This document shows positions 16,615 through 46,509 of a stretch of DNA of 49,060 nt, one piece after another. Below the pieces are notes generated by a model. The model made no database searches, was not told where the DNA came from, and saw only the letters and a program-made list of their open reading frames with translations. The translations under genes were made by a program, and so were the position numbers. Each line of letters begins with the position of its first letter. Positions within the stretch are counted from its first letter, which is position 1. This DNA comes from Allobosea sp. 12-68-7 (lineage in GTDB: Bacteria > Pseudomonadota > Alphaproteobacteria > Rhizobiales > Beijerinckiaceae), in contig NCCO01000028.1 in NCBI GenBank assembly GCA_002279705.1, positions 1 through 49,060 of the forward strand, written 5' to 3'.

Positions 16615-17412
16615 TCAGCGCGGGGCCGGCGCCGCGGGCGCCTCGTGGCGCGGGCTCGTGCCTTCGCCCCGCTCCGCCCGGAAAGCGGCGATGGCCTCCG
16701 CCAGCGAGGCCTCGAGCGAGGGTCCGGCGTCGTCGCAGACGATCGGGCGCAGCCGCGTCTCGACCAGCGAGAGATGGCTGCTCATCGCCTTGACCGCCTT
16801 GCCGCGCTCGCGGCCGGCCAGCGCCTTGAAGATCAGCCGGTGCTCCTCGCAGCCGCAGGCCGAGCCGAGCGTCGTCTCGTAGCGTTTCACCAGCATGATC
16901 GTCCGGCCGATCAGCTCATGCGCCTGGCGCTGGACGATCGGGTTGCCGACCATCTCGGCCAGCAGGAAATGGAACTCGGCCGAGAGTTTCAGCCAGGTCG
17001 GCTGGTCGCCGCGCCGCAGCGCCTCGGCCTCGGCGTCGACATGCTCGCGCAACCGCGCGAGCTGCGCCTCGGTCAAATGATCCGCGAGATGGGCGACCAT
17101 GCCGCTTTCGAGGATGCGGCGCGCCTCGTAGACGACCCTGCCCTCGCGCAGGTCCGGCTCGATGGTGAAGGCGCCGCGGTTCTTGACGATCTCCAGCAGC
17201 CGTTCATGGCCGAGCCGGTGCAGCACCTTGCGGACGCGCTCGCGGCTGACACCGAAGATCTCGGCCAGACGATGCTCGCCGAGCTTGGTGCCGCCCGGCA
17301 GCGAGCCCCCCAGCAGCAGGCGCGAGAGGATCGCATGGATCGCCGCTTCGTTCATGCCCACCCGTCTCGACAGCAGAGCCCGCTCAGCCGGAGGCGGCCG
17401 TTCCGTAGCCAT
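16615..17412 (-). CDS. GntR-family transcriptional regulator, FCD subgroup
   Basis: The 265-residue protein has an N-terminal winged helix (about 20-88) with LGEHRLAEIFGVSRERVRKV and HRLGHERLLEIVKNRGAF, and an all-helical FCD effector domain (about 95-230) with FHFLLAEMVGN and the later His in EEHRLIFKAL, the positions that usually bind a metal and carboxylate ligand. It is divergent from the first ABC importer operon across a 249 bp gap, so it probably controls that operon and itself. A perfect palindrome TTGTGCACAA in the gap is a candidate operator. Its effector is likely the imported compound or a breakdown product (inference). Confidence 0.88.
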   Translation of the reverse strand: MATERPPPAERALLSRRVGMNEAAIHAILSRLLLGGSLPGGTKLGEHRLAEIFGVSRERVRKVLHRLGHERLLEIVKNRGAFTIEPDLREGRVVYEARRILESGMVAHLADHLTEAQLARLREHVDAEAEALRRGDQPTWLKLSAEFHFLLAEMVGNPIVQRQAHELIGRTIMLVKRYETTLGSACGCEEHRLIFKALAGRERGKAVKAMSSHLSLVETRLRPIVCDDAGPSLEASLAEAIAAFRAERGEGTSPRHEAPAAPAPR

Positions 17413-17458
17413 ATCCTACCACCGATGGAGCCAATTTTTATGCACATTCAGGAAGCGA

Positions 17459-17468
17459 TTGTGCACAA
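17459..17468. promoter_or_regulatory. Candidate GntR operator palindrome
   Basis: TTGTGCACAA is a perfect 10-base palindrome, 46 bp upstream of the GntR start and about 145 bp upstream of the predicted sigma-54 start site of the importer operon. FCD-type GntR proteins commonly bind short TTGT-ACAA type palindromes. A half-site TGCACA (17441-17446) lies nearby. A second AT-rich palindrome AAAAACGTTTTT is at 17548-17559. Confidence 0.45.
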
Positions 17469-17586
17469 ATTTGACGCCCGAGCCTCTTCAGGCAGCACCA
17501 TGCCCGATGAAGAAACAGAATCCGAAAAACAACCCAAAATACTGTGAAAAAACGTTTTTCTGGTGTCTTCGCACTTGGGCCGCAGA

Positions 17587-17603
17587 TTGGCACGCCGGTT
17601 GCT
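17587..17603 (+). promoter_or_regulatory. Sigma-54 promoter of the first ABC importer operon
   Basis: TTGGCACGCCGGTTGCT matches the RpoN consensus TGGCACG-N4-TTGCW at every fixed position, with GG-N10-GC spacing. Transcription would start near 17,614, leaving a leader of about 48 nt before the binding-protein ATG. Sigma-54 promoters need an enhancer-binding ATPase such as NtrC; none is encoded here. Confidence 0.8.
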
Positions 17604-17661
17604 GACGACAGTTCCCGTCCGCGCCGTTGGAGAGCGCGCCCAATGTTCGAAAGGTCCGACC

Positions 17662-18711
17662 ATGGATAAGCCCTTCGCAGGCATGCCGAGCCGCCGCGCC
17701 CTCCTCAAGGGTGGCGCCGTCGCGACGGCGCTGGTCGCCGCTCCCTCGGTGTTGCGGGCCCAGACGAAGGAACTCGTCGTCGGCGGCGCCGCCGGGCACA
17801 AGCCCTGGGTCGAGCAGACTGTGATGCCGATGTTCGAGAAGAAATACGGCTGCAAGATCATCTTCGAGGGCACGCGCTCGCTGGTGAACCTCGAGAAGAT
17901 GCAGAAGAACAAGGACAAGCCCTACATGTCGGTCGTCCAGATGGACGATCCGGTCATGATCCTGGCGGTCAAGGAGGGCTTGCTGGAGCCGCTCACCGTG
18001 GCCAAGGCGCCGAACATGGCCGACCTCCTGCCGGGTTCGACTCATATGGACGGCATGTGGGCCAATTATCTGCAGCCCTGGCTCGGCGTCGCCTACAGCA
18101 AGACCGCGATGAAGACACCTCCCTCGTCCTGGGCTGAGATGTTCGAGCCGAAATACAAGGGCCGCATCGTCATCCCCTCGCTGCAGAACACGGAAGGCCT
18201 GCCCTCGCTCTTCGTCGCCGGGCTGCTCGCCGGCGGCACGATGGAGAGCGTCCAGAAGGACACCGATGCCGGCTTCAAGAAGCTCGCCTCGCTGAAGCCG
18301 AACCTGCTGACGATCTACACGCAGCAGCCGCAGGCCTTCAATCTGCTCGAGCAGGGCGAGGCCTGGATGATCGGGCCGGCGATGTCGTCCTATGCGCTGG
18401 AGCGCAAGGCGGCCGGTGCGCCGATCGATCTCGCCGCACCGAAGGAGGGCGTCTTCGCCATGCCGTCGGGCATCGCGGTCGTGAAGGGCTCGCCGCAGCA
18501 GGAGCTCGCCTTCGCCTATGTCAACGAGCTGCTCGGCGCCGAACTGCAGAACAAGCTGGCCGGGCCGACCTTCTCGATCGGCACCAACAAGGCGGTGCCG
18601 AAGCCGGCCGGGCTGGGCGCCGATGTGAAGATCCACCAGATCGACTGGGCCAATGTCGCCGCCCAGCGCAATGACTGGATCAAACGCTGGGATCGCGAGA
18701 TGGCGATCTGA
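17662..18711 (+). CDS. Periplasmic binding protein of polyamine/opine-type ABC importer 1
   Basis: The 349-residue protein begins MDKPFAGMPSRRALLKGGAV, with a twin-arginine motif (SRRALLK) and a hydrophobic stretch ending PSVLRAQ, so it is probably exported folded through Tat and cleaved near residue 35. The mature part starts KELVVGGAAGHKPWVEQTVM and is of the PotD/AfuA-like binding-protein class. It heads an operon with its ATPase (2 bp gap) and two permeases. AAGG precedes the ATG at 17,662. The ligand is unknown; downstream enzymes suggest a nitrogen compound. The promoter is sigma-54 type and a GntR regulator diverges from it. Confidence 0.9.
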   Translation: MDKPFAGMPSRRALLKGGAVATALVAAPSVLRAQTKELVVGGAAGHKPWVEQTVMPMFEKKYGCKIIFEGTRSLVNLEKMQKNKDKPYMSVVQMDDPVMILAVKEGLLEPLTVAKAPNMADLLPGSTHMDGMWANYLQPWLGVAYSKTAMKTPPSSWAEMFEPKYKGRIVIPSLQNTEGLPSLFVAGLLAGGTMESVQKDTDAGFKKLASLKPNLLTIYTQQPQAFNLLEQGEAWMIGPAMSSYALERKAAGAPIDLAAPKEGVFAMPSGIAVVKGSPQQELAFAYVNELLGAELQNKLAGPTFSIGTNKAVPKPAGLGADVKIHQIDWANVAAQRNDWIKRWDREMAI

Positions 18712-18713
18712 GG

Positions 18714-19784
18714 ATGAGCCAGGGTTTCCTGTCCGTCGCGGGAGCGGCCAAGACCTTCGGCGCCGCCACCGTGCTCGACGGCGTCGATCTGGCGATGGAC
18801 CGTGGCGAGTTCGTCTCGCTGCTGGGTCCCTCGGGCTGCGGCAAGACCACGCTGCTGCGGATCGTCGCCGGGCTGATGCGGCCCGACCAGGGCCGCGTCG
18901 TTCTCGACGGGCAGGACATCACCCGGCTGCCGCCACACCGGCGCGACGTCAGCGTCGTGTTCCAGAGCTATGCGCTGTTTCCGCATCTCACGGTGGCGGA
19001 GAATGTCGCCTTCGGCTTGAGGGCGCGCGGCGCGCCCTCGGGCGAGATCGCACCAGCGGTGGCGCGGTTTCTCGATCTCGTCCAGATGGGCGCCTATGCC
19101 GAGCGCTCGATCAAGGCGCTCTCCGGCGGGCAGCAGCAGCGCGTGGCGGTCGCGCGCGCGCTCGTCGTCGGGCCCAAGCTCTTGCTGCTCGACGAGCCCT
19201 TCTCGGCGCTCGACCGCAAGCTGCGCGAGACCATGCAGATCGACCTCAAGCGCCTGCTGCGCGAGGTCGGCACCACCGCGATCTTCGTCACCCACGACCA
19301 GGACGAGGCGCTGACCATGTCGGACCGGATCGCGGTGATGCATCGCGGCCGAATCGAGCAGCTCGATACGCCGGCTGCGATCTATGCCAGGCCGGCGACG
19401 CCCTTCGCGCTCGGCTTCGTCGGCCTCTCGACGCGGCTTCCCGGCACCGTGACCGACTCGACCGACGGCATCGTCACGGTGGCGACACAGGCCGGGCCGC
19501 TGCGCGGGCCGGGCCACTTCCTGCCCGGCAGCCCCGTCCTGCTCGGGGTCAGGCCGGAGCGCATCGCGCTCGACCATGGCGGCGCCAACCGGATCGAGGC
19601 CCCGCTCGCGGACGCCGCCTTCCAGGGGGCGCGGGTGCAGCTGCATTTCCAGGCCCCGCCCGACGGGCAGATCCTGGTCGAGACGCCGTCCCTTCCGGCT
19701 GCGGCGGGGCCCGGCACGTCGCTGAAGATGTCCTGGGCGATCGACGACACGCTGGTCTACCCCGCACCGGCAGAAGCGGCATGA
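18714..19784 (+). CDS. ATP-binding subunit of importer 1 (PotA-like)
   Basis: The 356-residue protein energises importer 1 at the inner membrane. It has Walker A GPSGCGKTT (38-46), the Q-loop in VVFQSYALFP (81-90), signature LSGGQQQR (136-143), Walker B LLLLDEP (156-162) and the switch His in FVTHDQDEA. The C-terminal third, from about residue 235, is a TOBE-type regulatory domain with VLLGVRPERIAL. It starts 2 bp after the binding-protein stop and overlaps the first permease by 4 bp (ATGA). All catalytic motifs are intact. Confidence 0.95.
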   Translation: MSQGFLSVAGAAKTFGAATVLDGVDLAMDRGEFVSLLGPSGCGKTTLLRIVAGLMRPDQGRVVLDGQDITRLPPHRRDVSVVFQSYALFPHLTVAENVAFGLRARGAPSGEIAPAVARFLDLVQMGAYAERSIKALSGGQQQRVAVARALVVGPKLLLLDEPFSALDRKLRETMQIDLKRLLREVGTTAIFVTHDQDEALTMSDRIAVMHRGRIEQLDTPAAIYARPATPFALGFVGLSTRLPGTVTDSTDGIVTVATQAGPLRGPGHFLPGSPVLLGVRPERIALDHGGANRIEAPLADAAFQGARVQLHFQAPPDGQILVETPSLPAAAGPGTSLKMSWAIDDTLVYPAPAEAA

Positions 19785-20617
19785 GCGCGTCGCGACGCCT
19801 CGACCCGGTGCTGCTGCTGGCGCTGCCGGCGGTGCTTTATCTCGCCATCGTCTACGGCGTGCCGCTGCTTATGCTGCTCGGCCGCAGCGTGCTCAGTGGC
19901 GGCGCCCCGTCGCTCGCCCCCTTCGCGGCCTTCCTGTCCGACCCCTTCAGCTGGACCGTGATCGGCAACACGCTGCGGATCGCGGTGCTGGTGACGCTGC
20001 TGTGCCTGCTGATCGGCTATCCGACGGCCCTGGCACTGGCGCGGGCGCGCGGCGCGGCGCAGGCGCTGATCCTGGTGGCGATCATCCTGCCGCTTTCGGT
20101 CGGCGTCGTGGTCAAGGCCTTCGCCTGGCAGATCGTGCTGCGGCGCGACGGCGTGGTCTCGCAACTGATGATGGGCCTGGGCCTGTGGAGCGAGCCGCAG
20201 CGCCTGCTCTTCACCGAGGCCGGCCTCGTGATCGGCGCGGCCAATGTCTTCGTGCCCTTCATGATCCTGCCGATCTATTCCGTCCTGAAGCTGGTCGATC
20301 CGCGGCTGGGCGAGGCGGCGGCGACGCTCGGCGCCTCGCCGCTCTACCGCTTCTTCAAGGTCGCCCTGCCCCTCTCGCTGCCGGGCATCGTCACCGGAAT
20401 CGCCTTCGTCTTCTCGATGGCGGCCTCAATGTATGTCATCCCCAATCTGCTGATCGGCGACCGTTTCCAGACGCTGGCGACGCTGACGGGCCGCTCCTTC
20501 CTGTTCATGCGCAACGAGCAGCTGGGATCGACGACGGCGGTCGTCCTGCTCGTGCTGACGGTTGCGGTCGTGGTCGGCAGCGCCGCGCTCTCGAAGCGGC
20601 TGGGCGGCGCGTCGTGA
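19781..20617 (+). CDS. Inner-membrane permease 1 of importer 1 (PotB-like)
   Basis: The 278-residue protein has about six membrane helices, starting PVLLLALPAVLYLAIVYGVP. The cytoplasmic EAA loop that docks the ATPase reads EAAATLGASPLYRFFKVALP (about residues 170-189). The ATG at 19,781 overlaps the ATPase stop by 4 bp, and its own stop overlaps the next permease start by 4 bp. With the following gene it should form the heterodimeric membrane channel of the importer. Confidence 0.92.
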   Translation: MSASRRLDPVLLLALPAVLYLAIVYGVPLLMLLGRSVLSGGAPSLAPFAAFLSDPFSWTVIGNTLRIAVLVTLLCLLIGYPTALALARARGAAQALILVAIILPLSVGVVVKAFAWQIVLRRDGVVSQLMMGLGLWSEPQRLLFTEAGLVIGAANVFVPFMILPIYSVLKLVDPRLGEAAATLGASPLYRFFKVALPLSLPGIVTGIAFVFSMAASMYVIPNLLIGDRFQTLATLTGRSFLFMRNEQLGSTTAVVLLVLTVAVVVGSAALSKRLGGAS

Positions 20618-21414
20618 CGGGAATCGAGCGCATCGCGTCGGCCGTCGTCTGGGCGCTGGCCGCCTTCACGGTGGTCTTCCTGCTGACGCCGCTGGTCGTC
20701 ACCGTCCTGGTGTCGTTCGGATCGAGCGCCGTCTTCACCCTGCCTGCGCCGAGCTGGTCGCTGCGCTGGTACCAGGCGCTGGGCCGTTCGCGCGAGCTCT
20801 GGCCGGTGGTCGCCACCTCGGTCCAGCTCGCGGCGCTGTCCACCGCGATCGCGCTTGGGCTCGGCACGCTCTGCGCCATCGGGCTGCTGCGCGGCCAGTT
20901 CCGCGGCCGCGACGCCATTGTCACCTTCCTGGTCTCGCCCCTGATGCTGCCGGGCCTCGTCATCGGCATCGCGATGCTGGAGAGCTTCCGGGCGGCGGGC
21001 CTGCGCGACGTGTGGGCGAGCCTGATCCTGGCCCATGTCGTGATTACGCTGCCTTACGTGGTACGCACCGTCTATGCGGCGCTCTCGCTGTTCGACTTCA
21101 TGCTGATCGACGCCGCCCGCACGCTCGGGCTGTCCTATCCCAAGGCGGTTCTCAAGGTGCTGGTGCCCTCGCTCGCCCCGGCCTTCCTGACCTCGGGAAT
21201 GTTCGCTTTCCTGGCATCGATGGACAATTATCCGATCTCGATCTTCTTCACCGACGCCTGGACCAAGACCTTGCCCATCCAGATGCTGCAATATGTCGAG
21301 GAAAGCCCCGATCCGACGATCGCGGCGATCTCCGCCCTGCTGATCCTGCTCGCCGCCGCCGTGCTCGTCATCGGCGACCGGCTGGTGGGCCTGCGCCGGA
21401 TGGCCGATCTCTGA
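20614..21414 (+). CDS. Inner-membrane permease 2 of importer 1 (PotC-like)
   Basis: This 266-residue permease uses a GTG start at 20,614 that overlaps the previous stop (GTGA). Six helices are predicted, beginning SAVVWALAAFTVVFLLTPLV. Its EAA loop reads IDAARTLGLSYPKAVLKVLV (about residues 164-183), with Asp in place of the usual Glu. The C-terminal part contains ASMDNYPISIFFTDAW, seen also in the PotC-like permease of importer 2 (SMDNVPVSLF). It overlaps the deacetylase start by a single base, which ties transport to that enzyme. Confidence 0.92.
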   Translation: MTGIERIASAVVWALAAFTVVFLLTPLVVTVLVSFGSSAVFTLPAPSWSLRWYQALGRSRELWPVVATSVQLAALSTAIALGLGTLCAIGLLRGQFRGRDAIVTFLVSPLMLPGLVIGIAMLESFRAAGLRDVWASLILAHVVITLPYVVRTVYAALSLFDFMLIDAARTLGLSYPKAVLKVLVPSLAPAFLTSGMFAFLASMDNYPISIFFTDAWTKTLPIQMLQYVEESPDPTIAAISALLILLAAAVLVIGDRLVGLRRMADL

Positions 21415-22238
21415 TGGCTTCTTCCGTGAGCGACCGTGATTTCCGTGGCTATGGCGACGCCCCGCCCGCGATCCGCTGGCCTGGCGGGGCGAGGCTCGCC
21501 GTGGTCGAGGAGATCACCGGCGTGCGCGATCTCTGCATGGAATCGCATTTCGAATACGGCCCGCGCGCCGGCTGGCCGCGCATCCGCGCGCTGCTCACGC
21601 AATACGGCGTGGCGGCGACGCTGAACGCCAACGGCCGCGCCGTCGCGCTCTCGCCCTGGCTGGTGCAGGAGGCGGTGGCCGACGGGCACGAGATCGCCGC
21701 CCATGGCTGGCGCTGGGAGCGGCACGCCCATATGGACGAGGCGCAGGAGCGCGCGGCGATCGCGCGCGCCGTGGCGGCGATCACGGAGGCCGCCGGCAGG
21801 CCGCCGGTCGGCTGGCACACGCGCTCGGCGACCTCGCTCAACACCCGCCGGCTGCTGTGCGAGCATGGCGGCTTCCTCTATGATTCCAACGCCTACAATG
21901 ATGATCTTCCCTTCCTGGTCGATGTCGCGGGCGGGCAGCATCTGGTGCTGCCCTATGCCTTCGACACCAACGACATGCGCTTCCAGCGCGGCGGCGGCTT
22001 CGTCTTCGGGGACGATTTCGCCCGCTACTGCATCGACGCCTTCGACCGGCTCTACGCAGAAGGCGGCACGGCGCCGCGGATGATGTCGGTGGGCTTGCAC
22101 TTGCGCATCATCGGCCGGCCCGGACGGATCGGCGGGCTCGAGCGCTTCCTGGTGCATGCGGCGTCGAAGCCCGGTGTCTGGTTCGCCCGACGCGACGCGA
22201 TCGCGCGGCACTGGCTGGCGGAGCTGGGGACGAGTTGA
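21414..22238 (+). CDS. PuuE/allantoinase-like polysaccharide-deacetylase protein lacking the first motif
   Basis: The 274-residue protein belongs to the cofactor-light allantoinase branch (PuuE) of the NodB fold, whose members hydrolyse cyclic ureides. It has the branch start DRDFRGYGDAPP and RWPGGARLAV, the motif HGWRWERH (about residues 100-107) and SLNTRRLLCEHGGFLYDSNA. However, between GGARLAV and FEYG there are only 15 residues, against 43-45 in the two sister proteins in this window. The missing part includes the NYEEG strand, the counterpart of the metal motif of NodB enzymes. The loss is in frame. It may be inactive, a subunit, or have a changed substrate. Its start overlaps the permease stop by 1 base. 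Confidence 0.82.
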   Translation: MASSVSDRDFRGYGDAPPAIRWPGGARLAVVEEITGVRDLCMESHFEYGPRAGWPRIRALLTQYGVAATLNANGRAVALSPWLVQEAVADGHEIAAHGWRWERHAHMDEAQERAAIARAVAAITEAAGRPPVGWHTRSATSLNTRRLLCEHGGFLYDSNAYNDDLPFLVDVAGGQHLVLPYAFDTNDMRFQRGGGFVFGDDFARYCIDAFDRLYAEGGTAPRMMSVGLHLRIIGRPGRIGGLERFLVHAASKPGVWFARRDAIARHWLAELGTS

Positions 22239-22416: not shown

Positions 22417-23325
22417 ATGACCCAGCGCGACCTCGAAGGCTATGCCGGCAACTGGCCGGACTTCACCTGGCCCAATGGCCGGCGGCTCGCCGTCTCCGTC
22501 GTGATCAATTTCGAGGAGGGCGCGGAGCTTCAGGTTGGTGACGGCGATGCGCGCTCGGAGAGCATGGGCGAGGTGATCAGCGTCGTTCCCGCCGGCAAGC
22601 GCGACCAGGGTCAGGAGCAGATTTTCGGCTATGGCACGCGCGCCGGGCTCTGGCGCATGCTCGACGCGCTCGACGACAGCGCCATCCGCGCGACGATCTT
22701 TTTCTGCGGGCGGGCGGTCGAACGCTCGCCACGGCTGGCGAAGGCGGTGGTGGCGCGCGGCCATGAACCGGCCGTGCATGGCTGGCGCTGGCGGCCCCAT
22801 GCCGATTACGAGACGGCCGCGGCGGAGGCCGCCGACATCGACGCCTGCGTCGCCACCATCACCGCCGCGACCGGTGTCGCGCCTGTCGGCTTCTTCTGCC
22901 GTGGCGGAGAAAGCCCCTGGACGCGGGCGTTGCTGGCGCAACGCGGCTTTCTCTACACCTCCAACGGCTTCGACGACGATCTGCCCTATTGGGATCGCGC
23001 AGCGGGGCGCCCGCCTCTGCTCGTCGTGCCCTATGCACTCGACAGCAACGACATGAAGTTCTTCCACCCGAACGGCTTCGTGCGTGCCCGCGAGATGGTG
23101 GAGTACGTCACCGACGCGCTCGACGTGCTGGAGGCGGAGGCCGCGCGTGGCCTGCCGCGGCTGCTCAATCTCGGCTTCCACCTGAGGATCGTCGGGCGCC
23201 CGGCGCGCTTCGCCGCCTTTCGCGACATCATGAACCTGCTGGCGGCCCGGCGCGACCAACTCTGGATCGCGGGCCGCGCCGAGATTGCGCGCGCCTTCAT
23301 CGCCGCCGTGCCGGAGAGCCCCTGA
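22417..23325 (+). CDS. PuuE/allantoinase-like polysaccharide-deacetylase-family hydrolase
   Basis: The 302-residue protein starts MTQRDLEGYAGNWPDFTWPN and keeps the full motif set of the PuuE branch: VINFEEG (first motif), FGYGTRAGLWRM, HGWRWRPHADYE, GFFCRGGESPWTRALL and the final FHLRIVGRPARF block. It should hydrolyse a cyclic ureide or similar C-N bond in the cytoplasm. It shares family with 21,414 and 26,834 but is clearly diverged, so the three probably handle different substrates or are partner subunits. Its stop overlaps the racemase-like start by 1 base. Confidence 0.86.
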   Translation: MTQRDLEGYAGNWPDFTWPNGRRLAVSVVINFEEGAELQVGDGDARSESMGEVISVVPAGKRDQGQEQIFGYGTRAGLWRMLDALDDSAIRATIFFCGRAVERSPRLAKAVVARGHEPAVHGWRWRPHADYETAAAEAADIDACVATITAATGVAPVGFFCRGGESPWTRALLAQRGFLYTSNGFDDDLPYWDRAAGRPPLLVVPYALDSNDMKFFHPNGFVRAREMVEYVTDALDVLEAEAARGLPRLLNLGFHLRIVGRPARFAAFRDIMNLLAARRDQLWIAGRAEIARAFIAAVPESP

Positions 23326-23981
23326 TGCGCCTGCTGCTGATCAACCCCAATACCAACGCCGCAACCACCAACATGATGCGCGCCATCGCCCAGGCGGCGG
23401 CCCCGGCCGGCACCGTGATCGACGCGATGAGCGCGCCCTATGGCGTGCCGCTGATCACGAATGAGGAGGCGCTGGCCCAGTCAGCCAAGGCGGTGCAGGC
23501 GCTGACGGGCGCGATCACCACGACCCCGCCGGACGGCGTCATCATCGCCGCCTTCGGCGATCCAGGGCTGGCTGCGCTTCGCCTGCGCGTCTCCTGCCCA
23601 GTCACCGGCATCGCCGAGGCCGGCATGGCCGAGGCCGGCGCGGGCCGGCGGCCCTTCGCGGTGGTGACGACGACGCCCGATCTCGTTTCCTCGATCACCG
23701 GGCTGGCACGGGCCTATGGCCATGAGACGACGTTTCGAGGGGTCGCCCTGACCAAGGGCGACGTCCACGCGATCATGGCCGATCACGCCACACTGGTGGA
23801 GGCGCTGGCCGAAGCCTGCGCGGAGGCGATCGAGACGATGGGCGCGCAGGCGCTGGTGATCGGCGGTGGCCCGCTCGGCCAGGCGGCGCAATCGCTCAAT
23901 CTGCGGTTTTCGGTGCCGGTGATCGCGCCGATCCCCGCGGCCGTGCGGCTGGCGCAGAAGCGGGTTTCGCGGGGTCATTGA
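23325..23981 (+). CDS. Asp/Glu/hydantoin-racemase-family protein without catalytic cysteines
   Basis: The 218-residue protein begins MRLLLINPNTNAATTNMMRA, the hydantoin/allantoin racemase signature. The family's two active-site cysteines normally sit in IACFGDPG and VLGCAG-like motifs; here these read IIAAFGDPG (Ala76) and VIGGGPLG (Gly181). The only cysteines are Cys91 and Cys165, away from those sites. The rest of the fold appears intact. Two-base Cys racemisation is therefore unlikely; it may be a hydrolase/decarboxylase variant or a binding protein. It closes the importer 1 operon and overlaps the upstream deacetylase by one base. Confidence 0.82.
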   Translation: MRLLLINPNTNAATTNMMRAIAQAAAPAGTVIDAMSAPYGVPLITNEEALAQSAKAVQALTGAITTTPPDGVIIAAFGDPGLAALRLRVSCPVTGIAEAGMAEAGAGRRPFAVVTTTPDLVSSITGLARAYGHETTFRGVALTKGDVHAIMADHATLVEALAEACAEAIETMGAQALVIGGGPLGQAAQSLNLRFSVPVIAPIPAAVRLAQKRVSRGH

Positions 23982-25867: not shown

Positions 25868-26719
25868 TCAATCCAGCAACCGCAACCGCGTCAGGCGGCT
25901 CGGATTGCTCTCGGCCAGCAGGATGTCGCCGCCCGGCATGCCGTAGATGCCGTGCGCGCCATTGAGGAAGGGCCGGCAGCGGCCGAGGCGCTCGCCATGG
26001 GGGCCGATCTTCTGCAGGGTCGGCTGGGTGTCGGTGACGTAGGTGTTGCCGTCCTCGTCGCCCCAGATCGCGACCGGGTCGCGGAAATGGCTCCAGGTCG
26101 CGAGATGCTCGCCATTGCGGTCGAAGACCTGGACGCGGTTATGGGTGCGGTCGACGACGACGACGCGGCCATCGGCATGGGTCCAGAGCGCATGCGGCCA
26201 GCCGAACTGGCCCTCGCCGGCGCCATGCTCGCCCCAGCTCTGCAGATGGACGCCATAGGCCGAGAAGCGGTGGATGCGGCTCGCGGCATAGCCATCGGCG
26301 ACATAGATGTCGCCCCAGGCCGAGACATGCACGTCGGTGGGGTGGTTGAAGGGCGAGAGCGGCTCGCCGCGCTGGCCGAGGCCGCCCAGGCGCTCGCCGC
26401 TCGCCGAGCAGATGACGATCTCATGCATGTCGCGGTCGACGCAGAGGAGACGCCCCTGCGCATCGACGGTGAGCATGTGGGAATCGGCGATCAGGTCGCC
26501 GCCCCAGCCGCCGAGATAGTCTCCCTCCGGCGAGAGCTCGACGACGCGCGGATCGTCGGGTTGCGTCAGCGGGTCGTGGCGCAGCATGACGAAGACATGC
26601 CCGCGGGCATCGACCGTCACATCGGTGACGAAGCCGGCATTCTGCGGCCAGGAGCCGAAGGGCCGCTCGATCAGGTAGCGGGCATCGCCGAGGGCGACGA
26701 TCAAATCGGGCTTGGGCAA
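25868..26719 (-). CDS. NHL-repeat beta-propeller protein
   Basis: The 283-residue protein has about five to six NHL-like repeats, such as GHVFVMLRHDPLTQPDDPRV, FNHPTDVHVSAWGDIYVADG, FGWPHALWTHADGRVVVVDR and DGNTYVTDTQPTLQKIG, which build a six-bladed propeller. Related proteins are peptidyl-amidating-lyase-like or SMP-30-like, but no lyase residues can be confirmed by eye. No signal peptide is visible, so it is probably cytoplasmic. The start appears to be TTG at 26,719, since the nearby ATG is out of frame. Its place between a deacetylase and an amidohydrolase suggests a catabolic or substrate-binding role. Confidence 0.75.
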   Translation of the reverse strand: MPKPDLIVALGDARYLIERPFGSWPQNAGFVTDVTVDARGHVFVMLRHDPLTQPDDPRVVELSPEGDYLGGWGGDLIADSHMLTVDAQGRLLCVDRDMHEIVICSASGERLGGLGQRGEPLSPFNHPTDVHVSAWGDIYVADGYAASRIHRFSAYGVHLQSWGEHGAGEGQFGWPHALWTHADGRVVVVDRTHNRVQVFDRNGEHLATWSHFRDPVAIWGDEDGNTYVTDTQPTLQKIGPHGERLGRCRPFLNGAHGIYGMPGGDILLAESNPSRLTRLRLLD

Positions 26720-34823: not shown

Positions 34824-34839
34824 TGGCACATGATTTGCT
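34824..34839 (+). promoter_or_regulatory. Sigma-54 promoter of the lysR gene
   Basis: TGGCACATGATTTGCT matches TGGCAC-N5-TTGCW, with GG-N10-GC spacing. The start site would be near 34,850, about 30 nt before the lysR ATG. Confidence 0.75.
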
Positions 34840-39610: not shown

Positions 39611-40275
39611 CCTTCTCGCTTGCTGGTCGCTGTGCCCGCACGGGCATGCTCGGGGCCGTGGTCACCACCTCCTCCATCGCGGTGGGCTCGCGCTGCCAGC
39701 ATGCCGCGGCCGGCGTGGGCGCGGCGCTGACGCAGCACATGACCGACCCGCGGCTCGGCCCGCTGATGCTGGACCTGCTCCGGCGCGGCTACTCCGCACA
39801 GCAGGCGGTCGATGCCGCGGCGGCCGCCACGCCGCGCAGCGACTGGCGCCAGCTCGCCGTCATCGACAGCGCGGGGCGCACCGCGAGCTTCAGCGGTGGC
39901 AACGTCCAGCCCGAGCTCGCCGAAGTCCATGGCCGCGACTGCGTGGCGCTCGGCAATATCGTGCGCTCCAAGGAGGTGCCGGCCGCCATGGTCAGCGCCT
40001 TCGAGGCCGATCCGGCGGCGCCGCTCGCCGCCCGGCTGATCGCGGCGTTGAAAGCCGGCGACGAGGCCGGCGGCGAGTTCAAGCCACTGGTGTCGACCGC
40101 GCTGATCGTCGCGCATGAGCAGGCCTTTGCCTATGTCGACCTGCGCGTCGACGGCGATGCAGACCCGATCGCGACGCTCGCGCGCCTCTGGCGCGACTAC
40201 GAGCCGGTCGCCGATCTCTACGTGACGCGGGCGGTCGATCCGGACACCGCCATCGCGAACCGGCCGATGAGCTGA
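39607..40275 (+). CDS. DUF1028-family protein
   Basis: The 222-residue protein starts MTFSLAGRCARTGMLGAVVT and contains IAVGSRCQHAAAGVGAALTQ and FSGGNVQPELAEVHG, matching DUF1028 proteins, which are thought to have an Ntn-hydrolase-like fold. Family members often sit beside amino-acid or ureide catabolic genes. Function is not established. It overlaps the RidA fusion stop by 4 bp, and the dipeptide-type binding-protein gene starts 23 bp later, so all are likely one operon. Confidence 0.8.
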   Translation: MTFSLAGRCARTGMLGAVVTTSSIAVGSRCQHAAAGVGAALTQHMTDPRLGPLMLDLLRRGYSAQQAVDAAAAATPRSDWRQLAVIDSAGRTASFSGGNVQPELAEVHGRDCVALGNIVRSKEVPAAMVSAFEADPAAPLAARLIAALKAGDEAGGEFKPLVSTALIVAHEQAFAYVDLRVDGDADPIATLARLWRDYEPVADLYVTRAVDPDTAIANRPMS

Positions 40276-40298: not shown

Positions 40299-41801
40299 AT
40301 GCGACGACATCTTGCGACACTGGCCGTCACGATCGGCCTTTCGACGGCGCTGACGGCGCTGCCCGCCGCCGCTCAGGGCACCGTGCGCGTCGCGCTCGGG
40401 ACGACGCTGAGCCAGCTCGACCCGGCCAAGACGACGATCGGCGACGAGTACGTCTACGTCCATCTGCTGTTCAACGGGCTGTCGCGTATCGACGCCGACA
40501 TGACGGTGAAGCCGGATCTCGCCGAGAGCTGGACGGCCTCCGCCGACCTGAAGACCTGGACCTTCAAGCTGCGCCAGGGCGTCAAGTTCCACCATGGCCG
40601 GGTGATGGACGCCGAGGATGTCGTCGCCACGATGAAGCGGATCCTCGACCCGGCGACCGGCTCGCGCGCCCGCACCAGCCTGTCGATGGTCGAGGGCGTC
40701 TCGGCGAGCGACCCGACGACGGTCGAGTTCAAACTCAACATCTCCTATGCCGGCTTCGCCGACATCTTCGCCGACCGGCAACTGCGCATCGTCGCCAAGG
40801 ACAAGCTCGCCGAGCTCTCAACCCAGCCGATCGGCACCGGCCCGTTCATGTTCAAGTCCTGGTCGCCCGGCGACCGGCTCGAGTTGGTCAAGAACCCCGA
40901 CTATTTCGAGAAGGGCCTGCCGAAGCTCGACGGCGCGACGCTGCGCATCATTCCGGAATCCGCGGCCCGCATGGCGGCGCTGGAGTCGGGTGCGATCGAT
41001 ATCGTCTGGAGCATGCCCTATGAGGCGGTCGACAAGCTCAAGACCAGCGCGACCGCACGAGCCGACAGCGTCTCGACGCCGACCTGGGACGGCGTCATCC
41101 TCAACAACGACCGCCCGCCCTTCAACGACGTGCGCGTCCGCAAGGCGCTGGCGCTGACGATCGACAAGGCGGCCATCGTCGAACTGGCGCTGTTCGGCCA
41201 GGGCGAGCCGACCTTCAGCCCGATCCCGCCCAGCCACCCCTATTTCAACAAGGCACTCAAGGTCGGCGCCCCCGACATCGCCCAGGCCAAGAAGCTCCTG
41301 GCCGAAGCGGGCTTCCCCAACGGTTTCGACGTGCCGATGCAGGTTCCCCAGGAGCGCGAGCAGCGCGTGCGCGTCGGCGTGGCCGTGCGCGACATGGCCC
41401 GGGCCGCGGGTATCCGCATCAATGTGGAGCGGGTGCCCTTCGCCTCCTATACCGCCAATGTCGCGGGCAAGGCGCAGATCTATGTCGACGGCTATTTCGC
41501 CCGGCCGACGATCGATACGGCGATCTATCCGTTCTACCATTCGAGCGGAAGCTGGAACAAGCAGCTCTGGATCTACAAGGACGCCCGTGTCGACCAGTTG
41601 CTCGACGATGCCCGCAAGACCAATGACGAGGCGGCGCGCAAGGCGATCTTCGAGAAGTTCCAGGCGATCGCCGAGGAGACCGTGCCCGGCATCATCGCCT
41701 ATTCGGCGGCGCATGTGAACGGCGTCAGCAAGAAGGTCGAGGGCTTCAAGTCGACCCCGATGCAGTGGCTTGAACTGAAGAGCGTCTCGATCAAGCCCTG
41801 A
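40299..41801 (+). CDS. Dipeptide/oligopeptide-type ABC binding protein (family 5)
   Basis: The 500-residue protein has a Sec signal peptide, MRRHLATLAVTIGLSTALTA ending PAAAQG. The mature part has the family-5 features PDLAESWTASADLKTWTFKL, RQGVKFHHG, PIGTGPFMFKSWSPGDRLEL and NNDRPPFNDVRVRKALALTI. These proteins bind peptides, but also opines, nickel or sugars. GAGGGG precedes the ATG. A strong hairpin (41,811) separates it from the permease genes, probably giving more binding protein than channel. Confidence 0.92.
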   Translation: MRRHLATLAVTIGLSTALTALPAAAQGTVRVALGTTLSQLDPAKTTIGDEYVYVHLLFNGLSRIDADMTVKPDLAESWTASADLKTWTFKLRQGVKFHHGRVMDAEDVVATMKRILDPATGSRARTSLSMVEGVSASDPTTVEFKLNISYAGFADIFADRQLRIVAKDKLAELSTQPIGTGPFMFKSWSPGDRLELVKNPDYFEKGLPKLDGATLRIIPESAARMAALESGAIDIVWSMPYEAVDKLKTSATARADSVSTPTWDGVILNNDRPPFNDVRVRKALALTIDKAAIVELALFGQGEPTFSPIPPSHPYFNKALKVGAPDIAQAKKLLAEAGFPNGFDVPMQVPQEREQRVRVGVAVRDMARAAGIRINVERVPFASYTANVAGKAQIYVDGYFARPTIDTAIYPFYHSSGSWNKQLWIYKDARVDQLLDDARKTNDEAARKAIFEKFQAIAEETVPGIIAYSAAHVNGVSKKVEGFKSTPMQWLELKSVSIKP

Positions 41802-41877: not shown

Positions 41878-42834
41878 ATGGCAGCCTACATCACCCGACG
41901 CCTGGCCCTTGTGGTCCTCGTCCTCGTGGCGGTGTCGATGCTCGTCTTCGGCGTCACCACGCTGCTGCCGGCCAATGTCGCCTATCTGATCCTGGGCGCC
42001 TTCGCGACGCCCGAGCAGGTCCGCGCGCTCGAACTCAAGCTCGGCCTGACCGACCCGGTCTGGCAGCAATATCTGCGCTGGGCGGGCGGCTTCGTCACCG
42101 GTGATCTCGGCGTCTCGACGCTGATGAACCGGCCGGTCGGGCCGATGCTGCTGGAAGCGCTGCAGCGCTCGCTGATGCTGACGGGCCTCTCCTTCGTGCT
42201 GATCGCCGTCATCGGCGTCGGGCTCGGCATCGTCGCGGCGCTGCGCCATGGCAGGCCGCTCGACCACGGCGTCTCGGTCGCGACCTATCTCGGCATCGCC
42301 GTGCCCGAGTTTTTCTGGGCGATCGTCGTCATCATCGTCTTCGCCGCCTGGCTCGGCTGGCTGCCGGCCTCGGGCTACGAGCCGCTCTCGGCCGGCGTCT
42401 GGGAATGGGCCAAGCACCTGATCGCGCCCACCATGACGCTGGTCTTCGGCCATCTCGCCCATGTCTCGCGCCTGACGCGGTCGAGCATGATCGAGGTGAT
42501 GCAGAGCCCCTACATCACCGCCGCCCGCGCCAAGGGCCTGCCCGAGCGGGTGATCGTGCTCCGCCATGCGCTGCGCAACGCCCTCCTGCCGACGATCACG
42601 GTGCTGGCGCTGGATTTCGGCCGGTTGATGGGCGGCATCGTGGTGATCGAGACCGTCTTCGCCTATCCCGGCCTCGGCCGCCTCGTCGTCTTCTCGATCC
42701 AGAACCGCGATCTGCCGACGCTGCAGGCCGCGATCCTGGTGGTCGCCGCGATCTACGCGCTCGCCAACCTCTTGGCCGACCTGCTCTATGCCCGTCTCAA
42801 CCCAAAAATCCGGTTCGGCCGCCATGTCGCCTGA
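41878..42834 (+). CDS. Dipeptide-type ABC permease (DppB-like)
   Basis: The 318-residue permease starts MAAYITRRLALVVLVLVAVS, with the typical DppB N-terminal helix and VSMLVFGVTTLLPANVAY. Six helices are predicted; the EAA-type loop is near YITAARAKGLPERVIVLRHA, and the family ending is DLLYARLNPKIRFG. It starts 27 bp after the hairpin and overlaps the next gene by 11 bp. Confidence 0.94.
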   Translation: MAAYITRRLALVVLVLVAVSMLVFGVTTLLPANVAYLILGAFATPEQVRALELKLGLTDPVWQQYLRWAGGFVTGDLGVSTLMNRPVGPMLLEALQRSLMLTGLSFVLIAVIGVGLGIVAALRHGRPLDHGVSVATYLGIAVPEFFWAIVVIIVFAAWLGWLPASGYEPLSAGVWEWAKHLIAPTMTLVFGHLAHVSRLTRSSMIEVMQSPYITAARAKGLPERVIVLRHALRNALLPTITVLALDFGRLMGGIVVIETVFAYPGLGRLVVFSIQNRDLPTLQAAILVVAAIYALANLLADLLYARLNPKIRFGRHVA

Positions 42835-43708
42835 ACGCATGTCGCCTGAGCCAGCCGCCGCCACGCCCGCAAAGCCGCCGCACAAGCCGATGCCGCTGCA
42901 GCTCAAGGCCGGGCTCGCCATCACCGGCACCATCCTGCTGCTCGGGCTGCTGGCGCCGTGGATCGCGCCCCACCCCTGGGACACGATCTCGATGCGCACG
43001 CGCTTCCTGGCGCCGAACGCGACCTATTGGCTCGGCACCGACGAGTATGGCCGCGACGTGCTCAGCCGCCTGCTGATGGGGGCGCGGCTCTCGATCGGCA
43101 TGGGCGTGGCGGCGACCCTGTTCAGCCTCGCTATCGGCGTGCCGATGGGGTTGGCGGCCGGCTATTTCCGCGGCTGGGTCGACGAGGCGCTGATGCGGCT
43201 GGCCGATGTGCTGATGGCGATCCCGCCGATCATGCTCGGCCTGCTCGTGCTGGCGGTGACGCCGCCGGCGCTGTGGAAGACCGCGCTCGCCGTCGGCTTC
43301 GTCTACATCCCGCCGATCGCGCGGCTGGCGCGGAGCGTGACGCTGACGCTGGCCAATGAGGAGTTCGTACAGGCCGCCAAGGCGCGGGCCGAGAGCACGT
43401 CCTACATCCTGTTTCGCGAGATCCTGCCCAATGCCTGGCCGCCACTGATCGTCGAGGCCAGCCTGCGCGTGACCTATGCGATCCTGCTCGGCTCGGCCCT
43501 GTCCTTCCTCGGGCTCGGCGCCCAGCCGCCCAGTTCCGACTGGGGGCTGATGATCTCGGAGGCGCGCTCCTTCCTCGACCGTGCGCCCTGGATCGCGCTG
43601 GCTCCGGGGCTGGCCATGTGCCTGCTGGTGATCGGCATCAACCTGCTCGGCGACGGCGCCCGCGAGCGCCTCGATCCGCGCCTCAAGGCGCGGCTGGGGA
43701 AGGCCTGA
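42824..43708 (+). CDS. Dipeptide-type ABC permease (DppC-like)
   Basis: The protein (294 residues from the ATG at 42,824) has a Pro/Ala-rich cytoplasmic start and LKAGLAITGTILLLGLLAPW as first helix, followed by the DppC block YWLGTDEYGRDVLSRLLMGA. The EAA loop reads FVQAAKARAESTSYILFREI, and FLGLGAQPPSSDWGLMISEA is a family signature. A start at 42,839 is also possible. It ends exactly where the ATPase gene begins (1-base overlap). Confidence 0.93.
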   Translation: MSPERMSPEPAAATPAKPPHKPMPLQLKAGLAITGTILLLGLLAPWIAPHPWDTISMRTRFLAPNATYWLGTDEYGRDVLSRLLMGARLSIGMGVAATLFSLAIGVPMGLAAGYFRGWVDEALMRLADVLMAIPPIMLGLLVLAVTPPALWKTALAVGFVYIPPIARLARSVTLTLANEEFVQAAKARAESTSYILFREILPNAWPPLIVEASLRVTYAILLGSALSFLGLGAQPPSSDWGLMISEARSFLDRAPWIALAPGLAMCLLVIGINLLGDGARERLDPRLKARLGKA

Positions 43709-45534
43709 TGCTGATCATCGACGACCTGACCGTCCGCTACCGCACCGCCGGCGGCGAGATCGAGGCGCTGTCCTCGGTCAGCCTCCAGGCCCGCAGGGGC
43801 TCGACGCTGGCGCTCGTCGGCGAATCCGGTTCCGGCAAGAGCACGATCGCGCTGGCCGCCATGGGGCTCTTGCCGGCAGAGGCCTCGGTGCCCTCCGGCC
43901 GCATCCTGTTCGACGGCGCCGACATCCTGACGATGGGGGCGGAGGCGCGCCGGCAATTGCGCGGCTCGCGCATCGGGCTGGTCTTCCAGGACCCGTTCTC
44001 GGTGCTGAATCCCAGCTTGCGGATCGGCGACCAGGTCGGCGAAGGCCTCGTCCATCATCGCGGCTTCACGCCGGAGGCCGCCTTCGAGCGGGCCATCGCG
44101 CTGCTCGACGAGGTCGGCATCGTCAACCCCGAGGCCGTCGCGAAGGCCTATCCGCACGAACTCTCGGGCGGCATGCGGCAACGCGCTCTGATCGCCGGGG
44201 CGCTCGCCTCCGAGCCCGAGCTGCTGATCCTAGACGAGCCGACCACGGCGCTGGACGTCACCATCGAGGCGCAGATCCTCGACCTTCTCGAAGATCTGCG
44301 GGCCCGGCGCGGCCTGACGATGCTCTTCATCAGCCACAATCTCGGCGTCGTCAGGCGGATCGCCGACGAGGTCGCCGTGCTCTATGCCGGGCAGATCGTC
44401 GAGCAGGGCGCGACGGAGGATGTGCTGCAGCGGCCGGCCCATCCCTACAGCAAGGGGCTGCTCGCCGCGATCCCGCGGATCGGCCGCAAGACCGCGCGGC
44501 TCGCCGCCATTCCGGGCCGTTTGCCCGATCTGCGCCAGCCGCCGACGGGCTGCCGCTTCGCGCCGCGCTGCCCCTTCGCGACTTCCGCCGAGACGCTGCG
44601 GGAGACGCCCTGGCCGGTCCAGGCGGATGCCGACGTCGTCAAATCCCCCTCGCCCGCCACACAGGCGGCGACGGCCGAACCGGTCGTGGCCGTGGAGCAT
44701 CTCACCAAGAGCTTCGTGCTCGGCCGCGGCACGCTGCGTTTCGAGGGCTGGCGCCCGGTTCGCGACGCCACCCGCATCCGGCCGGTCGACGACATCTCGC
44801 TGACGATCGCGCCGGGCGAGGTCGTCGGGCTCGTCGGCGAATCCGGTTCGGGCAAGACGACGCTGGGGCGCACGATCCTGCGGCTGGTCGAAGCGGATTC
44901 CGGCGTCATCCGGATCGGCGGCGAGACCGTCTCCGGCAAGCCGCAGAGTGCGCTCAAGGTGATGCGGCGCACCGCGCAGATCGTCTTCCAGAACCCGGAT
45001 TCCTCGCTCAACCCGCGCAAGACCATCCGCGAGCTGCTGGGCCGGCCGATCGCCCGCTTCAGCCTCGCGCCGGCGGGGGAGATCCCCAGGCGCGTCGACG
45101 AACTGCTCGATCTGGTGCGCCTGCCGGTCCATTACGCCGACCGCTACCCGCACCAGATGAGCGGCGGCGAGAAGCAGCGCGTCGGTATCGCGCGGGCGCT
45201 GGCGACGCAGCCGCGCTTCATCGTCTGCGACGAGCCGGTCTCGGCGCTCGACGTCTCCGTGCAGGCGGCGATCGTCAACCTGCTGGCAGATCTGAAGGAC
45301 CGGCTCGGCGTCGCCTATCTCTTCATCTCGCACGACATCTCGGTCGTCGCCCATCTCGCCGACCGGGTGGCGGTGATGCATCACGGCAAGATCGTCGAGG
45401 TCGGACAGGCCGACGCGATCATGAGCGCGCCGAGCCACCCCTACACGATCAGGCTGCTCTCGGCGGTGCCGCGCGTCGACGGGCCACCGCATGTGCAGCC
45501 GAAGGCGGGCCGCGCGGCTGCGGTGCCGGCCTGA
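43708..45534 (+). CDS. Fused dual ATP-binding protein (DppD-DppF type)
   Basis: The 608-residue protein joins two complete ATPase modules that are separate genes in E. coli. The first has Walker A GESGSGKST (38-46), signature LSGGMRQR (152-159) and LLILDEPTTALD (about 172-183); the second has GESGSGKTT (377-385), MSGGEKQR and VCDEPVSALD. Between them lies the peptide-importer tail GCRFAPRCPF (281-290), which often carries metal-binding cysteines. All catalytic motifs are present in both halves. It energises the permeases encoded just upstream. Confidence 0.94.
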   Translation: MLIIDDLTVRYRTAGGEIEALSSVSLQARRGSTLALVGESGSGKSTIALAAMGLLPAEASVPSGRILFDGADILTMGAEARRQLRGSRIGLVFQDPFSVLNPSLRIGDQVGEGLVHHRGFTPEAAFERAIALLDEVGIVNPEAVAKAYPHELSGGMRQRALIAGALASEPELLILDEPTTALDVTIEAQILDLLEDLRARRGLTMLFISHNLGVVRRIADEVAVLYAGQIVEQGATEDVLQRPAHPYSKGLLAAIPRIGRKTARLAAIPGRLPDLRQPPTGCRFAPRCPFATSAETLRETPWPVQADADVVKSPSPATQAATAEPVVAVEHLTKSFVLGRGTLRFEGWRPVRDATRIRPVDDISLTIAPGEVVGLVGESGSGKTTLGRTILRLVEADSGVIRIGGETVSGKPQSALKVMRRTAQIVFQNPDSSLNPRKTIRELLGRPIARFSLAPAGEIPRRVDELLDLVRLPVHYADRYPHQMSGGEKQRVGIARALATQPRFIVCDEPVSALDVSVQAAIVNLLADLKDRLGVAYLFISHDISVVAHLADRVAVMHHGKIVEVGQADAIMSAPSHPYTIRLLSAVPRVDGPPHVQPKAGRAAAVPA

Positions 45535-45591
45535 GCGGCCCGGGTGCCCAGTGCCGGGGGGCCGGATGGCCACCGGACCGATGTCGGCCGC

Positions 45592-46509
45592 CTACTTACC
45601 CCAGCGCAGGGCGAGCGGATCGAGTTCGCGAGCGAGTTCGATCAGCCCCTCGCGGGTCTTGGGATGCAGCGACGTCAGCGGATGGCGCACGGCTTCCGAC
45701 TTGATGACACCGCCCTCCTTCATCACCGCCTTGGCCGAGCGCAGGCCGCATTGGCGGTTCTCGTAATTGATGATCGGCAGCACCCTCGCATAGAGGGCCG
45801 CCGCGTGCTTGCGGTCTCCCGCCGCGTGGGCGGCGAGGATCGGCTTGATCAGATCGGGGATCATGGCCGACGTCATCGTACCGGTCGCGCCGGCGTCGAG
45901 ATCGGCCATCAGGGTGATCGCCTCCTCGCCGTCGAAAGGACCGACGACCGCCTCGCCGCCGGCCTCGATCAGCGCGCGCAGCTTGTTGGCCGTGCCCGGC
46001 ACCTCGATCTTGAAGTAGCGGACGAGCGGCACCTCCTTCGCCAGCCGGACCATGAAGGGCACGGTGAGCGTGACGCCCGACAGCGGCGCATCCTGCAGGA
46101 TGATCGGAATGCCGCAGGCGTCTGCCACCTGCTTGAAGTGCTCGACCATGCCCTGCTCGTCGGCCTTCAGGAGCGCGCCATGATAGGGCGGCATCATCAT
46201 CAGCAGCTTGGCGCCGGCATCGGCGGCGGCCTTGGCGCGCTGGGCGGCGATCCGGGTCGAGAAATGCGAGGTGGTGACGATCACCGGCACGCGCCCGGCG
46301 ACCTGCTCCAGCGAGAGGTGCATCACCTGCTCGCGCTCGGCGTCGGTGAGCAGGAACTGCTCGGAGAAGTTCGCGAGAATGCAGATGCCGTCGACGCCCT
46401 GGTCGACCATCAGATCCATCACGCGGCGGTTGCCGTCGAGATCGAGGTCGCCATTGTCGTGGAAGATGGTGGGGGCGATCGGCAGGATGCCCTTGTAGGG
46501 TTCGGTCAT
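45592..46509 (-). CDS. DapA-family aldolase/dehydratase
   Basis: The 305-residue protein is a Schiff-base aldolase of the dihydrodipicolinate synthase family. It has the Tyr in MMPPYHG, the Schiff-base Lys in RYFKIE and a TIM-barrel layout. The usual GTTGE phosphate/carboxylate motif reads ANFSEQ (about residues 46-51), so it is not a true DapA; keto-acid aldolase or 2-keto-3-deoxy-sugar-acid dehydratase activity is more likely. It is 17 bp after tctA on the same strand, so its substrate is probably linked to a carboxylate taken up by a TctABC-type system. Confidence 0.88.
   Translation of the reverse strand: MTEPYKGILPIAPTIFHDNGDLDLDGNRRVMDLMVDQGVDGICILANFSEQFLLTDAEREQVMHLSLEQVAGRVPVIVTTSHFSTRIAAQRAKAAADAGAKLLMMMPPYHGALLKADEQGMVEHFKQVADACGIPIILQDAPLSGVTLTVPFMVRLAKEVPLVRYFKIEVPGTANKLRALIEAGGEAVVGPFDGEEAITLMADLDAGATGTMTSAMIPDLIKPILAAHAAGDRKHAAALYARVLPIINYENRQCGLRSAKAVMKEGGVIKSEAVRHPLTSLHPKTREGLIELARELDPLALRWGK

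Follow-up and report, generated by a model that had tools for sequence, protein, structure and literature searches.

Does the large block of nitrogen-compound genes on one contig of Allobosea sp. 12-68-7 encode a single catabolic pathway, and for which compounds? The window analyzed here is that entire contig (C178, 49,060 nucleotides), part of a genome of 312 contigs (4.57 Mb, 92% complete), and the block lies at positions 16615-45534. A sequence-only reading had proposed one RpoN-linked pathway for a guanidino or cyclic-ureide compound, possibly an opine or a modified purine. We lean, with somewhat better than even confidence, toward a different explanation, in which the block consists of two catabolic units for ureide- or hydantoin-type compounds that share sigma-54 promoter sites and sit in a variable region.

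Gene content of the block

A purpose-written codon-model caller found 48 genes in the window, and those from 15792 to 49059 were scanned against Pfam and NCBIfam. Every gene class that the sequence-only reading had named was recovered in the block by gene calls and both sets of family models, and the Pfam scan added an NHL-propeller gene (25868-26719) that had been overlooked. No Rfam or tRNA match was found in the window. Unit A extends from 16615 to 32046 and contains the following genes:

16615..17355, minus strand: GntR/FCD regulator (Pfam FCD 82.7 bits, GntR 42.6 bits; a 60% relative adjoins the importer-1 operon in locus L162)
17662..18711, plus strand: importer 1 binding protein, SBP1 (SBP_bac_6 98.2 bits; best NCBIfam match PhnS, 84.3 bits against a cut-off of 395.3)
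18714..19784, plus strand: importer 1 ATPase (ABC_tran 129.6 bits, TOBE_2)
19781..20617, plus strand: importer 1 permease (BPD_transp_1 46.5 bits)
20614..21414, plus strand: importer 1 second permease (BPD_transp_1 52.6 bits)
21414..22238, plus strand: PuuEa, PuuE-like ring hydrolase without the motif-1 stretch (TIGR03212 282.8 bits)
22417..23325, plus strand: PuuEb, PuuE-like ring hydrolase (TIGR03212 264.6 bits; NFEEG motif)
23325..23981, plus strand: racemase-fold protein (g25, Rac) without catalytic cysteines (PF01177 130.8 bits)
24159..25709, minus strand: AmhA, ATZ/8-oxoguanine-deaminase-type amidohydrolase (Amidohydro_1 153.2 bits)
25868..26719, minus strand: NHL beta-propeller (g27), PAL-like (NHL 45.7 bits)
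26834..27748, minus strand: PuuEc (g28; 3cl6 PuuE 371.4 bits, TIGR03212 400.5 bits)
27903..28721, minus strand: importer 2 permease (BPD_transp_1 42.7 bits)
28886..29749, minus strand: importer 2 second permease (BPD_transp_1 53.5 bits)
29919..30947, minus strand: importer 2 binding protein (SBP_bac_8 69.5 bits)
30964..32046, minus strand: importer 2 ATPase, operon head (ABC_tran 137.5 bits)

Unit B extends from 32549 to 45534:

32549..33451, plus strand: NodB-like hydrolase (g33) with metal motifs FDVDGE and HHGYLH (PF01522 58.5 bits)
33448..34793, plus strand: AmhB, ATZ-type amidohydrolase, frame broken near the 3' end (Amidohydro_1 165.1 bits)
34880..35773, plus strand: LysR regulator (LysR_substrate 128.9 bits, HTH_1 66.3 bits)
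35929..36888, plus strand: ureohydrolase (Arginase 184.6 bits; motifs GGDH, DQHLD and DLDGIDP)
36885..38165, plus strand: M20 hydantoinase/carbamoylase-family amidase (TIGR01879 230.8 bits, cut-off 204; L-carbamoylase 3n5f 173.6 bits)
38375..39610, plus strand: triple RidA protein (three PF01042 stretches)
39604..40275, plus strand: DUF1028 protein (PF06267 182.4 bits over 39646-40275; 2imh 66.8 bits over 39604-40275)
40299..41801, plus strand: Dpp-type binding protein (SBP_bac_5 325.1 bits)
41878..42834, plus strand: Dpp-type permease B (BPD_transp_1 141.2 bits)
42890..43708, plus strand: Dpp-type permease C (BPD_transp_1 114.5 bits)
43708..45534, plus strand: fused Dpp-type ATPase D-F (two ABC_tran and two oligo_HPY stretches)

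Conservation of the two units across genomes

A scan for the triple RidA protein, with each species represented by a single genome, yielded 12 unit-B loci, from Bosea (L045 belongs to B. vaviloviae SD260), a Bradyrhizobium, a bin of Microvirga and further bins. The scan used exact peptide patterns and would miss distant loci, and contig ends truncate two of the 12 (L046 and L051). Besides the RidA gene, present in all 12 by selection, DUF1028 and Dpp genes were each found in 10, the ureohydrolase and the M20 amidase each in 9, and AmhB and LysR each in 8. For unit A, the NHL protein, the racemase-fold protein and AmhA served as probes. The fetched stretches, of up to 20 kb, included 31 NHL-centered loci (20 of the 27 non-own rows of one match list and 11 of the 13 of another), AmhA-centered loci for 20 of the 42 non-own rows of their match list, and 14 ureohydrolase-centered loci that served as controls.

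No unit-A marker (at least 45% identity) was present in any of the 12 unit-B loci, and markers of both units occurred together in 2 of the 91 fetched loci longer than 8 kb, where units farther apart than the loci reach (about 21 kb at most) would escape detection. In one of these (L129), a NodB-like gene (59%) lies beside PuuEc, NHL and Rac; in the other (L162), relatives of RidA (46%) and DUF1028 (39%) are separated by about 10 kb from an operon of GntR, importer 1 and PuuEa. Genome G340 carries unit B on contig C19 and NHL genes on two different contigs, C8 and C13. The PuuEc, NHL and importer 2 genes are clustered in 10 further genomes (L092, L096-L098, L125-L128, L130 and L131), and importer 1 adjoins this group in G286, G210 and G065, as it does in the window. 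Relatives of the unit-B ureohydrolase were found in 62 of 199 genomes of the order, and only one of the 14 ureohydrolase loci picked from these for examination (L029) has NodB-like and Dpp genes (>45% identity) nearby.

The region itself differs even within the genus. The distance from the flanking gene g16 to the DHDPS gene is 29,807 bp in the window versus 4,127 bp in G302, where the interval holds relatives of PuuEa and the racemase-fold protein plus two other genes, and the NHL gene lies about 51 kb away. Conservation within each unit, with the two units rarely together, speaks against the single pathway of the sequence-only reading. The block is best read as two conserved units that adjoin in a stretch differing from one related genome to the next.

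In the window, unit B is followed on the minus strand (45592-48041) by the DHDPS-family gene and a TctA-type transporter gene, and a DHDPS ortholog (94%) likewise flanks the region in G302.

Sigma-54 promoter sites

Scanning for the sigma-54 (-24/-12) consensus TGGCACN5TTGCW detected three perfect sites in the window versus 0.02 expected, and none of 100 shuffles gave three or more:

17588..17603, plus strand: perfect site (0 mismatches) of the importer 1 operon, 59 bp before SBP1
32114..32129, minus strand: perfect site (0 mismatches) of the importer 2 operon, 68 bp before the ATPase gene
34824..34839, plus strand: perfect site (0 mismatches) before LysR, 41 bp upstream

The 16-mer before LysR is identical in L044, L045 and L046. 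Across 1.82 Mb (the window plus the fetched loci longer than 8 kb) 11 sites matched perfectly; each lies no more than 400 bp upstream of a called start, and 8 of them precede importer-1, importer-2 or LysR heads. Conservation was then scored with at most one mismatch and with GG and GC intact, among genes with at least 60 bp of upstream sequence; the gene also had to be called, which excluded the L131 importer-2 head. With identical head proteins counted once and control genes not thinned, sites preceded all 10 importer-2 heads (window included) versus 24 of 787 control genes; they also preceded 4 of 5 importer-1 heads, 5 of 9 LysR genes, 2 of 4 DppA genes and 5 of 6 PuuEb heads, the sixth of which (the window's own) sits inside an operon. 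Because sites recur at unit-A heads in relatives, the link of unit A to sigma-54 appears to be old. That of unit B was seen in the window and in L044, L045, L046 and L047 and was absent from the other loci tested. The proposed RpoN link is therefore strong at the level of predicted promoters, with perfect sites at three operon heads and similar ones in relatives.

Unit B resembles a hydantoin-type route

We detected a D-hydantoinase gene in 6 of the 12 unit-B relatives (L047, L048, L050, L051, L053 and L054). The one in L047 scores 554 bits against a cut-off of 393 and matches 1nfg in the PDB, and the other five are at least 69% identical to it; the hydantoinase label comes from family models for L047, L093 and L140 and from similarity for all others. 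In five of the six (all except L051), a racemase gene lies beside the hydantoinase and M20 amidase genes, and both cysteines are present in the four unit-B racemases examined (L047, L048, L053 and L054). Operons of the hyu type contain a hydantoinase, a hydantoin racemase and an N-carbamoyl amino acid hydrolase, and these five relatives combine the corresponding genes. The window's unit B differs in having the NodB-like protein and neither hydantoinase nor racemase: the family scan of genes from 15792 to 49059 found no hydantoinase, and unit B holds no hydantoin racemase. Unit B also adds the ureohydrolase, the ATZ amidohydrolase, the triple RidA protein, DUF1028 and the Dpp importer. Since relatives carry the hydantoinase and the window's M20 amidase passes the hydantoinase/carbamoylase-family cut-off, unit B looks, as far as gene families can tell, like a hydantoin-type route with additions.

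Orthologs of g33 (71-93%) were found in L044, L045, L046 and L049, and the hydantoinase and the g33 ortholog are mutually exclusive in unit-B loci (Fisher p 0.02, window included; related genomes are not independent events, so Fisher values overstate). Neither gene is present in L052 and L055, and L053 has only a remote NodB relative (30%). The simplest reading is that the NodB-like protein replaces an unrelated ring-opening D-hydantoinase.

The metal motifs of the ureohydrolase are intact in 19 of 20 aligned sequences, with L026 deviating in the last motif, which makes a guanidino substrate beside the ureide plausible. In the triple RidA protein, the R/K/H-x-VSTG motif occurs in the first two domains, and the third is without it in all 14 sequences aligned. 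AmhB carries a deletion of about 60 bp that shifts the frame relative to its ortholog in L045, which is unbroken at 464 amino acids. In L048 (from 4673), L050 (4893-6245), L054 (from 4916) and L055 (from 5844), unit B contains or adjoins a gene of the MmgE/PrpD family and an additional M20 gene.

Unit A combines ring hydrolases with a PAL-like propeller

All three PuuE-like proteins of unit A score under the TIGR03212 (PuuE) cut-off of 424.6 bits. Of these, PuuEc comes closest to allantoinase PuuE; it aligns with the Pseudomonas fluorescens enzyme (3CL6) over residues 1-302, its full length, and has the NYEEG motif. It differs from that enzyme in its score under the equivalog cut-off, in its setting with a propeller and an importer, and in the presence of a PuuE-UraD fusion elsewhere in the genome. 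PuuEa shows an in-frame loss of about 27 residues, including the NVEEG motif, relative to its orthologs in L090 and L097. The lesions in PuuEa and AmhB may reflect decay or an assembly error in the 312-contig genome, and intact copies of both genes occur in other genomes.

The PuuE-UraD fusion, with a broken frame, lies with an HIU hydrolase gene on contig C282 (L118), and the two are an ordinary urate-route set. An adjoining 411-amino-acid membrane protein may be a PuuD-type urate enzyme, judged by eye; it had no NCBIfam match at 1e-10. A search of the genome for allantoicase gave no match, but neither did its controls, so the result carries no weight.

Beside unit-A relatives in other genomes we detected HIU hydrolase (L096 and L098 by Pfam, L131 and L140 by tblastn), ureidoglycolate lyase (PF04115; L100, L107 and L108 by Pfam) and dihydropyrimidinase/hydantoinase, over the cut-off in L093 and L140 and by similarity in L095, L097, L132, L136, L137 and L139. 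These neighbors point to purine- or hydantoin-type ureides. The histidine and aspartate motifs of AmhA are intact in all 24 aligned sequences. Genes of the SIS, PfkB and BtpA families and of the molybdenum-hydroxylase type accompany some AmhA relatives (L150:3910-19071, L147 and L145; family assignments tested for L150), a hint that the substrate there is a heterocycle bearing a sugar.

The predicted fold of the NHL propeller has a pLDDT of 95.7, and peptidyl-alpha-hydroxyglycine alpha-amidating lyase (PAL, 3FVZ) gave the highest query-normalized TM-score (TMq, 0.84) among the 50 matches listed, with a Foldseek E-value of 1.5e-18 that ranks third. Residues R47, H81, Y144, H176 and H256 are invariant in 18 aligned sequences; they follow the same order as R533, H585, Y654, H690 and H786, which we take to be the PAL active site, the correspondence being one of order and not of residue-level alignment. 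PAL converts an N-acyl alpha-hydroxyglycine into an amide and glyoxylate, and this is the chemistry of ureidoglycolate lyase. Unlike PAL, g27 is bacterial and free-standing and lies beside ureide-type enzymes. A PuuE or hydantoinase gene was found within the fetched stretch in 23 of the 31 NHL loci versus none of the 14 control loci. The genome itself, 92% complete, has no match to PF04115, and among seven genomes of the genus the three with NHL lack PF04115 and the four without NHL have it (p 0.029).

The racemase-fold protein g25 aligns over its full length with allantoin/hydantoin racemases (3QVJ, 5LFD) and belongs to their fold family; it differs in that both catalytic cysteines are replaced in it and in its close branch, with Ala and Gly standing where racemase 3qvj has its two cysteines. 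Among 35 sequences including g25 (L056 comes from the same genome as L054), 27 have Ala/Gly in these columns, 3 have other cysteine-free pairs, 1 has a single cysteine and 4 have both, these four being unit-B racemases from three genomes. One of the three with other pairs, L093:16451, is cysteine-free at both columns and has a cysteine one column away. The cysteine-free branch keeps the motif [GA]G[GA]PL versus GCAGM in the two-cysteine unit-B racemases, and this retention suggests that the branch is probably conserved for a role other than two-cysteine racemization.

Proposed routes and alternative explanations

From the observed gene content, conserved gene sets, promoter sites, NodB/hydantoinase exclusion and active-site motifs, we infer all substrates and reaction steps, above all that of the propeller. 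In unit A, the two ATP-binding cassette (ABC) importers would take up one or two small ureides, AmhA would deaminate or hydrolyze a heterocycle, the PuuE-like enzymes would convert hydantoin-type rings into ureido acids by opening them, and the PAL-like propeller may cleave an alpha-hydroxyglycine with an N-carbamoyl (or N-acyl) group, releasing glyoxylate together with urea or an amide. In unit B, Dpp import would be followed by deamination by AmhB; the NodB-like protein would open the ring in place of the relatives' D-hydantoinase, the M20 amidase would strip the carbamoyl group, the ureohydrolase would free urea from a guanidino form, and the triple RidA protein would clear imine intermediates. 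The earlier proposal of nitrogen scavenging from cyclic-ureide, hydantoin or guanidino compounds thus gains support at the level of gene families and predicted promoters, from the sigma-54 sites, the hydantoinase/racemase/carbamoylase-family operon of relatives, and the HIU hydrolase and ureidoglycolate lyase context. Its statement that no textbook pathway contains this set holds for the exact list, but unit B of relatives includes the known hydantoinase/racemase/N-carbamoylase set and unit A is centered on allantoinase-family proteins. Nothing was found in favor of its possible opine substrate, and no opine-oxidase-type gene was present among the genes scanned. A phosphonate reading was also considered and set aside: the best NCBIfam matches of the binding proteins, the importer-1 ATPase and the GntR regulator are 2-aminoethylphosphonate/phosphonate families, all below cut-off.

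Several observations weigh against two ureide/hydantoin units. None of the three binding proteins reaches a curated NCBIfam cut-off, PuuEa and AmhB appear damaged in the window genome, and L044 and L046 lack the ureohydrolase from unit B. By E-value PAL is outscored by NHL propellers with other functions (Thin, TRIM), in the fold comparison by two Thin structures, and 8 of the 31 NHL loci are without a ring hydrolase. As a plain replacement for ureidoglycolate lyase the propeller was rejected, since across 149 genomes PF04115 was present in 6 of 13 with NHL versus 44 of 136 without (p 0.36), and PF04115 and NHL occur together in L100, L107 and L108. Promoter sites (at most one mismatch) were missing before AmhA (0 of 9), AmhB (0 of 5), NodB (0 of 4), hydantoinase (0 of 4), RidA (0 of 7), ureohydrolase (0 of 11), GntR (0 of 2) and Rac (0 of 1) and preceded 1 of 9 NHL genes, and in unit-B loci of the hydantoinase type, L047 excepted, none precedes LysR or AmhB where tested. 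Published work on HP0310 (PMC3084791) also reports that this related NodB protein, with motifs like those of g33, was inactive on allantoin and on everything else tried.

A single pathway running from the GntR regulator through the Dpp importer, acting on one guanidino or cyclic-ureide compound, would fit the adjacency of the units, the perfect sigma-54 sites at operon heads of both, and the two loci (L162 and L129) with markers of both; we nonetheless regard it as very doubtful given the absence of unit-A markers from all 12 unit-B loci, the rarity of joint loci (2 of 91) and the separate contigs in G340. Very unlikely, too, is the idea that a variable region has simply gathered unrelated nitrogen-scavenging operons and that unit A is itself a loose collection. 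The short G302 interval, which keeps relatives of PuuEa and Rac with NHL some 51 kb off, would fit such gathering, but ten other genomes hold PuuEc, NHL and importer 2 together, and promoter sites precede all nine importer-2 heads tested outside the window.

Unit A might instead simply duplicate the ordinary allantoin route, with allantoinase, allantoin racemase and so on, as the 371-bit match of PuuEc to P. fluorescens PuuE and the nearest PDB entries of g25, hydantoin/allantoin racemases of the Klebsiella type, would suggest. We consider this quite unlikely, because PuuEc falls under the equivalog cut-off, the genome has a PuuE-UraD fusion elsewhere, and g25, like 30 of the 35 sequences (itself included), is without both catalytic cysteines. 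It is highly improbable, in our view, that the NodB- and PuuE-type proteins act as deacylases on acetylated amines or cell-wall fragments that polyamine-type importers take up. HP0310 (HpPgdA) shares Asp and His metal motifs with g33, homologs lie near polyamine (Pot-type) importers in both cases, and L049 has such an importer beside its g33 ortholog; yet the same study describes HP0310 as inactive on N-acetyl polyamines, acetyl dipeptides, GlcNAc compounds and allantoin (PMC3084791), and g33 lies in an operon where the unit B of other genomes carries D-hydantoinase.

Within the two-unit explanation, a more specific proposal, which we judge unlikely, is that unit A degrades ureides of modified or oxidized purines (such as 5-hydroxyhydantoin, iminoallantoin or guanidinohydantoin arising from damaged guanine). 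The three PuuE-type enzymes would then open several rings, the PAL-like propeller would be a new, unrelated ureidoglycolate-type lyase that takes the product of ring opening, and the racemase-fold protein without cysteines would contribute a new activity to the same route.

Implications

Systems of this kind are already known; for the combination, and for the setting of three of its proteins, we found no match in the open-licence literature, the body of papers covered. The locus offers a testable setting for three protein groups: bacterial PAL-like propellers, which may be ureide lyases, cysteine-free racemase-fold proteins, and HP0310-type NodB proteins, which may be cyclic ureide hydrolases. 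If the two-unit explanation is true, sigma-54-controlled ureide import would be a further element of nitrogen metabolism in Bosea-like bacteria and their relatives.

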